Shown here: in pieces, positions 12,403 through 32,698 of the stretch
Position numbering within the stretch: the stretch's first letter is position 1
Layout: every line of letters begins with the position of its first letter
DNA from: Phycisphaera mikurensis
GTDB taxonomy: Bacteria > Planctomycetota > Phycisphaerae > WQYP01
Direction of reading: 5' to 3'
DNA: 53,009 nucleotides
Assembly: GCA_022730455.1 (NCBI GenBank)
Contig: DZDI01000006.1
Coordinates: forward strand, 1-53,009
Made by a program: the position numbers and the translations under genes
The notes under the pieces: generated by a model
Seen by the model: the letters and a program-made list of their open reading frames with translations, nothing else
Databases searched by the model: none
Told to the model about the DNA's origin: nothing

Positions 12403-12619
12403 GGGTCCTCATCAAAACCAAGTCACGCATTCTAACGGGCTTGCGAACATCCGCAATTTACAATTTTTATTGGAAATGCCCGATGCCCCGATCGCGTATC
12501 GGCAAGGCAGAAAAATCATGATTCCGATGCCCGTCCGTCATTGAAGCGCTCTTGTGAAAGAGCGTAGGTTATATGGGCAGCGGCAAAACGGAGGTAAAAG
12601 CGACGCCAACTTTTCGAAA

Positions 12620-12690
12620 GCGGGCGAAGGGACTTGAACCCTCGACATTCACGTTGGCAACGTGACGCTCTACCACTGAGCTACGCCCGC
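12620..12690 (-). tRNA. tRNA-Gly (anticodon GCC)
   Basis: Reverse complement GCGGGCGTAGCTCAGTGGTAGAGCGTCACGTTGCCAACGTGAATGTCGAGGGTTCAAGTCCCTTCGCCCGC folds as a cloverleaf: 7-bp acceptor, CACGT-TGCCA-ACGTG anticodon arm, GGTTCAAGTCC T arm; CCA not encoded. Confidence 0.96.
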
Positions 12691-29027: not shown

Positions 29028-29942
29028 ATGCGATCACGTGCCAGCAATAGTCCGTTGTCAGGTGTTGCGACTATCGCAACGGGAGTTCTTGCGGTTGCGT
29101 TTATGGGCGGAACAGGGGTCGTGCGAGCCAGCGTTTCCGTTCCTCAAGCCGCCGATATGGCCTCGGCCTCCAGCGTGGCATACACATCGACCAACTGGTC
29201 TGGCTATGCCGACACGGCGTCCAGTGGATATGCCTTTAATTCTGTTTCCGCTACTTGGACGCAGCCAGCAGTCACCACCCAGTCCTCAAGCAGTTACGTG
29301 GCTGCGTCGTTTTGGGTGGGCCTCGACGGTTTTAGTTCCACTACAGTGGAACAAACCGGAACCCAGGCCGTTATTGGCTCCGGCGGCACGGTAACCTATT
29401 CCGCATGGTACGAGCTTTACCCGCAGGTTGAAATTCCTGTCTTCACTGTCAAGCCCGACGACAAAATCAGTGCGTCGGTGACATATGAATCCGCCACCAA
29501 CCAATTTGCATTCAAAATTACGGATTTAACGAGCGGTGCCTCGTACAGCACTACCGCGGTTGGCACGCAAACATCCAAGGCCCTGCGATCGTCTGCGGAA
29601 TGGATTGTGGAAGCTCCCGAATTTGGCACCAGCAGTGGTAGCTATCAGTTGTCAACACTGGCTGATTATGGTTCGTTCGGGTTTAATAACGCATCGGCGG
29701 GCATAAGCGGAAAAAGCATTAATCAGACCGGTTCCATCAGTGGTGTAAATGCCAATGGCGCAGCAACCTTAAACAGTATTACCCTTGTCGATGGCAATAC
29801 TTTTCAGGCCTTGTCCACGCCGTCCGCCCTGACCAACGACGGTGCCTCGTTTACGACCAACTATGTGCCCGAACCGACATCAGTTGCATTGGTTGGTCTT
29901 TCAGCCATGGGTCTGCTGCTGCTCAGGCGGCGTCGCGCCTGA
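29028..29942 (+). CDS. G1-family glutamic endopeptidase (eqolisin-like) with PEP-CTERM sorting signal
   Basis: STNWSGYA, SFWVGLDGFSSTTVEQTGTQ, YSAWYELYP, SSAEWIVEAPEF; C-terminus VPEPTSVALVGLSAMGLLLLRRRRA; N-terminal signal peptide-like segment. Confidence 0.88.
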   Translation: MRSRASNSPLSGVATIATGVLAVAFMGGTGVVRASVSVPQAADMASASSVAYTSTNWSGYADTASSGYAFNSVSATWTQPAVTTQSSSSYVAASFWVGLDGFSSTTVEQTGTQAVIGSGGTVTYSAWYELYPQVEIPVFTVKPDDKISASVTYESATNQFAFKITDLTSGASYSTTAVGTQTSKALRSSAEWIVEAPEFGTSSGSYQLSTLADYGSFGFNNASAGISGKSINQTGSISGVNANGAATLNSITLVDGNTFQALSTPSALTNDGASFTTNYVPEPTSVALVGLSAMGLLLLRRRRA

Positions 29943-29944
29943 AA

Positions 29945-29975
29945 TAGCTGTTTACCGCTGCGCGGTAAACAGCTA
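29945..29975 (+). terminator. Perfect 14-bp stem / 3-nt loop hairpin just downstream of the glutamic peptidase gene
   Basis: TAGCTGTTTACCGC-TGC-GCGGTAAACAGCTA; no T-tract follows, so intrinsic terminator function is uncertain. Confidence 0.45.
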
Positions 29976-31180: not shown

Positions 31181-31278
31181 CTAATGATATTTTATTATGG
31201 AATCAGACGACTGGTCGTGTGCCTGACTGGCCGAAGGGTCGTGAACGGTTACCGAAAAGGATTTTGATCACAACATTG

Positions 31279-31343
31279 TTGAGATTTATTCTCACTTCAT
31301 ATATAACTTGGCAATTGCAATAAATGAGAACTGGTCTCATTTA
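31279..31343 (+). promoter_or_regulatory. Sigma70-like promoter flanked by two metalloregulator-type operator dyads
   Basis: TTGAGA (31279-31284)-N17-TATAAC (31302-31307); box 1 TGAGA-TTTAT-TCTCA (31280-31294); box 2 TAAATGAGA-ACTGG-TCTCATTTA (31321-31343). Confidence 0.65.
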
Positions 31344-31378
31344 GATTCGCGTTCAATGTTGTGGTTATGGAGTGACCC

Positions 31379-32698
31379 ATGCCAATAGCTTCCCAAGTGC
31401 ACGAGCCATCATCCGGACTCGGTCCGCCATCCAAGGGCGATGCGTTCAAAAAATCCCGAAATCCCACATCGCCAGGAAAACCAGCTATGCCATTTTGGAA
31501 ATTACTTCTGCTGGTCGCCGGGCCGGGACTGGTGGTCATGCTGGCCGACACCGACGCGGGAAGTGTGATTACTGCAGCCCAAAGCGGAGCTCAATTCGGA
31601 TACCGGCTGCTGGTGTTTCAACTGATTTTGATTCCCATCTTATTTATCGTTCAAGAACTAGCCGTTCGCCTGGGGCTCATCACGCAAAAAGGACATGGCG
31701 AACTGATTAAAGAACATTTTGGCAAGGGATGGGCTTGGCTCTCTGTGTCTACGCTTATGGTTTCATGCGTGGGGGCCCTGCTGACTGAATTTGCCGGCAT
31801 CGAAGGCGTAGGCCAGCTTTTTGGCGTACCACCTTGGATCAGCATCTCCATGACCATACTCTTTCTGGTTATCGTGGTGGCCACCGGCACCTATCGTCAG
31901 GTCGAGGTCGTGGCAATACTCATTGGGCTTTTTGAACTGGCATTTGTGGCCGTGGCAGCCATTTCGCATCCTTCAGTACACGCGATGATCACCGCCATTA
32001 AAAATCAGCCCCTCCGCGATCCTAATTACCTGTTTCTGATCGCCGGCAATGTCGGTGCCGTCATAATGCCTTGGATGGTCTTTTACCAGCAGTCGGCGGT
32101 GATTGATAAAGGACTTAACGAGTCGCACATGCGAGCGGAGCGGGTTGATACTGTGGTCGGTTCAGTTGTTACGCAGATTATAATGGCTGCGGTGCTTATT
32201 CTCGTGGCGGCTACCATCGGCCTTAAGAATCCGGACGCTCAGCTAAATACGGTTCAGCAGATTGCCACTGGCTTGAGTGCCATCTTGGGCAGTTGGTGGG
32301 GCCGGGCCATTTTTTCACTTGGCATGCTGGGCGCAGCACTGGTGGCGACTATTGTAGTTTCACTTACCGCAGCCTGGGGTCTGGGCGAAGTGACTGGATA
32401 CAAACGGTCGCTGGCTCATCACCCATTCGAGGCCCCATGGTTTTACGCCATTTATACCATCGCCTTGTTAATCGGTGCGGGAATTGTGCTATCGGGCATC
32501 AACCTCGTGCGGCTTAGCGTCGGGGTGGAAGTGATGAATGCCCTCTTATTACCGATCGTGCTTGGCTTTTTGTATCTTTTGGCGCTACGCACGCTGCCGG
32601 AGCGTTGGCGTTTGAAGGGCTGGTATGCGTGGCTGGTTGGGGCGGTGGTCATATTAACAGCGCTGACGGGCGTTTATGCGGGCATCGCCGGCATTTAA
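31379..32698 (+). CDS. Nramp-family metal ion transporter homologue, non-canonical TM1/TM6 motifs
   Basis: GPGLVVMLADTDAGSVITAAQSGAQFGYRLL (TM1) and AGNVGAVIMPWMVFYQQSAVIDKG (TM6); multi-TM; GGAG upstream of ATG. Confidence 0.85.
   Translation: MPIASQVHEPSSGLGPPSKGDAFKKSRNPTSPGKPAMPFWKLLLLVAGPGLVVMLADTDAGSVITAAQSGAQFGYRLLVFQLILIPILFIVQELAVRLGLITQKGHGELIKEHFGKGWAWLSVSTLMVSCVGALLTEFAGIEGVGQLFGVPPWISISMTILFLVIVVATGTYRQVEVVAILIGLFELAFVAVAAISHPSVHAMITAIKNQPLRDPNYLFLIAGNVGAVIMPWMVFYQQSAVIDKGLNESHMRAERVDTVVGSVVTQIIMAAVLILVAATIGLKNPDAQLNTVQQIATGLSAILGSWWGRAIFSLGMLGAALVATIVVSLTAAWGLGEVTGYKRSLAHHPFEAPWFYAIYTIALLIGAGIVLSGINLVRLSVGVEVMNALLLPIVLGFLYLLALRTLPERWRLKGWYAWLVGAVVILTALTGVYAGIAGI

Follow-up and report, generated by a model that had tools for sequence, protein, structure and literature searches.

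Candidate Fur operators at the promoter of an Nramp-type metal transporter gene in a planctomycete

Introduction

The window analysed here, a stretch of 53,009 nucleotides from a planctomycete genome, carries a gene for an Nramp-superfamily divalent metal transporter whose promoter is bracketed by two inverted repeats (dyads) with the same arms. This raises the question of whether the dyads are operators and, if so, which regulator reads them and in response to which metal. A promoter of this kind would be a familiar type of switch in a phylum, the Planctomycetota, that has been little studied: our search of open-licence papers on Fur and iron in Planctomycetes found none describing a Fur operator or regulon in the phylum. 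We argue below, with a probability of about 0.86, that the two dyads are Fur operators, representing a lineage variant of the 7-1-7 Fur box, and that they would repress the Nramp promoter.

Two dyads and a conserved promoter upstream of the Nramp gene

The features of the locus are the following.

31269-31278 and 31354-31363: arms of an outer 10-bp repeat, CACAACATTG and CAATGTTGTG
31279-31284, + strand: -35 element TTGAGA, which doubles as the left arm of operator 1
31280-31294, no strand: candidate operator 1, the upstream dyad TGAGATTTATTCTCA, overlapping the -35 element (read from the sequence)
31302-31307, + strand: -10 element TATAAC, separated from the -35 element by a 17-nt spacer
31321-31343, no strand: candidate operator 2, the downstream dyad TAAATGAGA-ACTGG-TCTCATTTA, just past the expected start site
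31369-31372, + strand: Shine-Dalgarno-like GGAG, 6 nt 5' of the Nramp ATG (read from the sequence)
31379-32698, + strand: Nramp-superfamily divalent metal transporter, 439 aa (Pfam PF01566, E=2e-66)

The sequences and coordinates given for the dyads, the promoter and the outer arms by the sequence-only reading of this locus were all found to be correct when we re-read the window. The arms of operator 2 are perfect over 9 bp. The motif TGAGA-N5-TCTCA occurs twice in the 53-kb window, against an expectation of 0.03 copies, and none of 100 shuffles reached two copies. The two dyads are thus well beyond chance. The motif is also rare in the genome as a whole, where a pattern scan found it at just three places in 3.23 Mb (a draft that is 93% complete). 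A generic promoter scanner missed TTGAGA-N17-TATAAC, for the sole reason that it accepts only -10 elements ending in T.

We compared the locus between the four species of the genus (the host and G001, G002 and G003, together genus g1). The promoter, which had been called strong, is identical in sequence and spacing in all four. Aligning the orthologous upstream regions, a check that had been proposed for the dyads, gave a graded answer. The downstream dyad is a perfect TGAGA-N5-TCTCA at the same place in the four species, while the upstream dyad is complete in the host and G001, and G002 and G003 keep only its left half, i.e. the -35 element. Hence, we regard the downstream dyad as the primary operator. 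The centres of the dyads are 45, 46, 45 and 45 bp apart, when the remnant left half is counted as the upstream site. In G003 the downstream dyad (AAATGAGAATAATTCTCATTT) is two core positions away from the Vibrio Fur consensus, and is a near-canonical Fur box. Beyond the genus, several orthologues of the window Nramp in the family of the host (f1) have no such dyad directly upstream.

The dyads recur in front of iron genes

We then used pattern-based scans of the host genome. The proposal that matches would lie upstream of metal-homeostasis genes was borne out: they precede the window Nramp, an FTR1 iron permease and, with one mismatch, sufB. The third exact TGAGA-N5-TCTCA of the genome is the one upstream of FTR1 (L003, PF03239), whose promoter has the same layout as that of the Nramp gene, with TTGACACTGGGTCTCAA (one mismatch) over the -35 element and TTGAGAATCTATCTCAA past the -10 element, 43 bp apart. 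The sufB promoter carries TTGCGACTTTGTCTCAA, which has one mismatch and abuts TTGACA. This dyad is immediately upstream of the -35 element, a placement that could also suit an activator. A looser, degenerate search of the host genome retrieved 31 matches against 7 for the control, and is too loose to extend the regulon reliably. In two loci (L003 and L113), an OprB-family porin is encoded after FTR1 (identified by Pfam at L113), and the two genes are apparently co-transcribed; the porin is a possible outer-membrane partner for iron entry.

The same genes emerge at the level of the family. In the 18 f1 genomes scanned there are 33 exact WTGAGANNNNNTCTCAW sites, against one for a reversed-pattern control, and 27 of the 33 have FTR1, a window-type Nramp or sufB downstream (counted from the downstream open reading frames). 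In G009 and G011, sufB has single-mismatch copies upstream. In genus g6, FTR1 and a window-type Nramp are adjacent behind one such promoter and apparently form one operon. The architecture of the promoters also recurs: in several species, the Nramp and FTR1 promoters have a first dyad whose left arm is the -35 element (TTGACA or TTGAGA) and a second dyad that follows the -10 element, the dyad centres of the FTR1 promoters being 43, 45, 45, 45, 42 and 36 bp apart.

We extended the scan to 198 genomes of the class: 48 of them contain the strict palindrome, compared with 2 for the control. The loci that we read place it before feoB, sufB, a heme oxygenase gene and the gene of a Peripla_BP_2-family periplasmic binding protein; many other matches fall within genes or upstream of proteins that have no known function. 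Two groups of uncharacterized proteins came up along the way. One is a secreted-looking family of ~310-345 aa with the motif S[IV]YGKxxFPEPF/L, which has an iron-type dyad directly upstream in three genomes (L085, L308 and L309); the L308 protein has no Pfam match. The other is a DUF6662-like or unnamed protein (..FEYEQYVTW..), which a strict dyad immediately precedes in four class genomes (L290, L303, L304 and L305).

Looping and RNA structure are poor accounts of the dyads

The comparison of promoters bears on the suggestion that the two dyads, together with the outer repeat that encloses them, form a looped repression complex. This would fit a promoter bracketed by two operators whose spacing is frequently 45 bp. 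However, a free DNA loop needs more than 45 bp. The spacing varies between 25 and 46 bp across promoters, and in some of them the second site is absent or degenerate, leaving a single one, which makes looping unlikely. As for the outer 10-bp repeat, it exists as described, yet a part for it in the switch is not supported. Composition-matched Markov sequences contain ~5.4 such pairs per window (loop of up to 80), against 11 in the real window when overlapping pairs are counted (local P 0.023), and the repeat is absent from the three same-genus Nramp promoters (G001-G003). Being near chance and not conserved, it is probably not part of the switch, and we left it out of the mechanism. Overall, a looped complex seems to us extremely improbable.

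The downstream dyad might instead act in the RNA, as a 9-bp hairpin of the 5' leader governing translation or termination, since TAAATGAGA-ACTGG-TCTCATTTA would pair in the transcript. But, in these same promoters, the dyad also lies over the -35 element, outside the expected transcript, and it recurs upstream of sufB. Across 38 sites the arms conserve their sequence, without compensatory changes of pairs. There is no terminator-like site at the downstream dyad and no Rfam match either, the only Rfam match in the window being a tRNA at 12619-12690. We consider that an RNA element has hardly any chance of being the right explanation.

The sites resemble Fur boxes

The Fur box of E. coli is GATAATGATAATCATTATC, and Fur boxes are described as 7-1-7 or 9-1-9 inverted repeats. 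The consensus of our 38 sites, TAATTGAGAYT-N-ARTCTCAATTA, has a one-base centre and the 7-1-7 geometry, which is the minimal unit established for B. subtilis Fur (PMC7536154). Like classical Fur boxes, the sites are odd-centred inverted repeats of ~19-23 bp with TGA...TCA outer triplets and AT-rich flanks; they overlap promoter elements of iron-uptake genes, recur before iron-homeostasis genes of the host and its relatives and are found in a genome that encodes a Fur. They also differ from them. Relative to the classical GATAAT / TGATAAT, most f1 sites (TGAGACTNAGTCTCA) have G for T at -4, i.e. TGAGA for TGATA, and C or T for A at -2. Furthermore, f1 promoters often have two well-separated sites, one of which embeds the -35 element. 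The centre of operator 2 in the window, ACTGG, is non-canonical. The Vibrio Fur consensus used for comparison above is AATGATAATAATTATCATT, as quoted in PMC7536154. Variants of this type have a precedent in the Fur regulon of E. faecalis, which lists TGAGAATGATTCTCA and TGAGAACGATTCTCA (PMC6056675): these have the identical TGAGA-N5-TCTCA frame before iron transport genes, although the inner positions differ and the phylum is unrelated.

We then asked what lies upstream of homologues of the transporter elsewhere. A protein search blind to promoters provided 80 Nramp homologues, most of them from other phyla and ~56-65% identical; the 80 include 12 planctomycete-like close relatives, which overlap with the f1 genomes. 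The nearest named relatives of the host genome are metagenome bins of Planctomycetota/Phycisphaerales, including one from the same genus (L200, YP3.bin66). When the 300 bp upstream of each homologue were scored for Fur boxes (maximum score 14), 21% reached at least 13/14, against 0.1% of shuffles, and 10% reached 14/14, against none of the shuffles. The strongest scores were those of Proteobacteria, whose upstream sites match the classical Fur consensus. Textbook Fur boxes were found, for example, upstream of L255 (AAATGATAATAATTATCATTT), L243 (TGATAATGATTATCA) and L217 (TGAGAATGATTCTCA).

Fur is the candidate regulator

The host genome encodes a single Fur (L065), a single member of the DtxR family (L079) and a single Rrf2 protein (L173). 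None is next to the transporter, as had been noted: the flanks that we examined contain an AcrB-type pump, an A4 peptidase, an unidentified open reading frame, YbaB, RecR and NfeD. Fur is our candidate because it fits the target genes, because the DtxR-family protein has an operator of its own and no match in two genomes with dyads, and because the Rrf2 protein is devoid of cluster cysteines.

Nramp genes are classic targets of MntR, and a DtxR/MntR-type regulator, responding to Mn or Fe, could repress the window Nramp as MntR does mntH. The host protein L079 has all three domains and is closest to MntR models. However, wherever an f1 genome includes the other side of the regulator gene, a different Nramp paralogue is found there, and the DNA between mntR and mntH contains TTTGAY-NN-RTCAAA dyads but no TGAGA dyads. 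Two genomes, G008 and G016 (89-91% complete), have no DtxR match, yet have 4 and 3 dyad sites, respectively. The targets FTR1 and suf point to iron, not manganese. We therefore rejected MntR/DtxR as the regulator of the dyads, a role that we judge improbable. What these genes describe is a second metal circuit of the family (L122-L132, L079), in which an MntR-like DtxR protein is divergent from another Nramp. It resembles the window locus in combining a metal-responsive regulator, an Nramp and paired operators ~45 bp apart, and differs from it in the operator and in the Nramp concerned.

An Rrf2-family Fe-S regulator, similar to IscR or RirA, would fit the suf operon, and suf together with iron uptake is a target set of the RirA/IscR kind. 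The outline of RirA sites, TGA-N9-TCA, accommodates TGAGA-N5-TCTCA, and an Rrf2 protein is present in every genome searched. But the cluster-binding loop of the sole host copy is free of cysteines. No copy with cluster cysteines, as in the sister genera, was found in the host genus, even though the dyads are kept there. Moreover, the Proteobacterial orthologues of the transporter have canonical Fur boxes. This candidate was also rejected, on the missing cluster cysteines, and we find it unlikely that such a protein reads the dyads.

This leaves Fur, which is present in 17 of the 18 f1 genomes. The earlier suggestion of a Fur/Mur/MntR-type regulator is partly supported: variant Fur boxes on the promoter gained strong support from the FTR1, sufB and Nramp targets and from the Fur boxes at orthologues of other phyla, and Fur is favoured over MntR. 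L065 matches PF01475 (E=4.8e-21), and its closest solved relative is the Fur of Magnetospirillum gryphiswaldense (E=1.9e-17; 4raz, 4rb1 and 4rb3), which was solved on Fur-box DNA. In the host protein the recognition helix retains its Tyr-Arg, and H88/H90/E101 (E. coli numbering) are also kept. In the genus (L065, G001-G003) the E. coli-type H87 and D89 and the CxxC zinc cysteines are lost, and the HDH site reads AHAH. Because of these losses, metal sensing by the Fur of this genus may differ. The Magnetospirillum protein also lacks the CxxC zinc site but, unlike that of the host genus, which has A at both positions, it keeps H87 and D89. The loss of the HDH aspartate is limited to the host genus, most sister genera keeping HDH.

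A proposed iron switch and the cargo of the transporter

From the targets and the geometry of the promoter, we infer that Fur binds the dyads with iron as the signal, and that the outcome is repression, not activation. When iron is plentiful, the single Fur of the host would bind as dimers at both dyads. At operator 1 it would cover the -35 hexamer built into the left arm, and at operator 2 the region of the start site, so that RNA polymerase could neither load nor start. Direct occlusion would suffice, possibly with cooperative binding, and no contact between the dyads would be necessary. Under iron shortage Fur would leave, and the cell would make the Nramp-type transporter along with the FTR1 permease and the products of the SufBCD operon for Fe-S assembly. 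The analysis provides an operator consensus that can be put to use and a core regulon of FTR1, Nramp and SufBCD, joined elsewhere in the class by feoB and heme oxygenase.

The transporter itself scores well under both NCBIfam cut-offs for the MntH/nramp subfamilies, and its nearest solved structure is EleNRMT of Eggerthella lenta, an NRAMP-related Mg/Mn transporter (7qia, E=2.7e-48, against ~1e-12 for classical MntH). The two share the PW in helix 6 and the loss of the classical proton-coupling histidine, the position of which in TM6 is a Trp in both. They differ in the metal site: the signature is DxxG-TxxA/T in NRMTs and DxxN-A/CxxM in classical NRAMPs (PMC8806188), while the window Nramp lacks the NRMT signature and has DxxS-AxxM (D59-A-G-S62 and A227-V-I-M230), thus keeping the transition-metal methionine. 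DAGS is found in 70 of the 80 homologues and AVIMPW in 79, the latter being partly selected since one of the two patterns used in the search was AVIMPWM. The most likely cargo is Fe(II) or Mn(II), because the methionine is kept and Fur boxes lie upstream in several phyla, and the protein is probably an importer of these ions; the regulation suggests Fe(II). Such regulation ties an NRMT-like branch of Nramp proteins to iron in several phyla and makes its substrate directly testable.

A broader scenario, which we put forward tentatively and think rather doubtful as a whole, is that the variant box TTGAGAYTNARTCTCAA, read in this family by a Fur devoid of CxxC and, in the host genus, with a reduced metal site, coordinates iron import by FTR1 and Nramp with Fe-S assembly. 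The regulator might then respond directly to a signal other than Fe(II), the transporter belonging to an iron-dedicated branch close to the NRMT magnesium transporters.

Other features of the window

Upstream of the transporter locus, the window encodes an acid protease, a peptidase A4 that bears a PEP-CTERM tail (29028-29942), consistent with a planctomycete of acid habitats. Just past its stop codon at 29942 there is a perfect inverted repeat, CTGTTTACCGCTGCGCGGTAAACAG (29948-29972), which is probably a terminator or a similar element.
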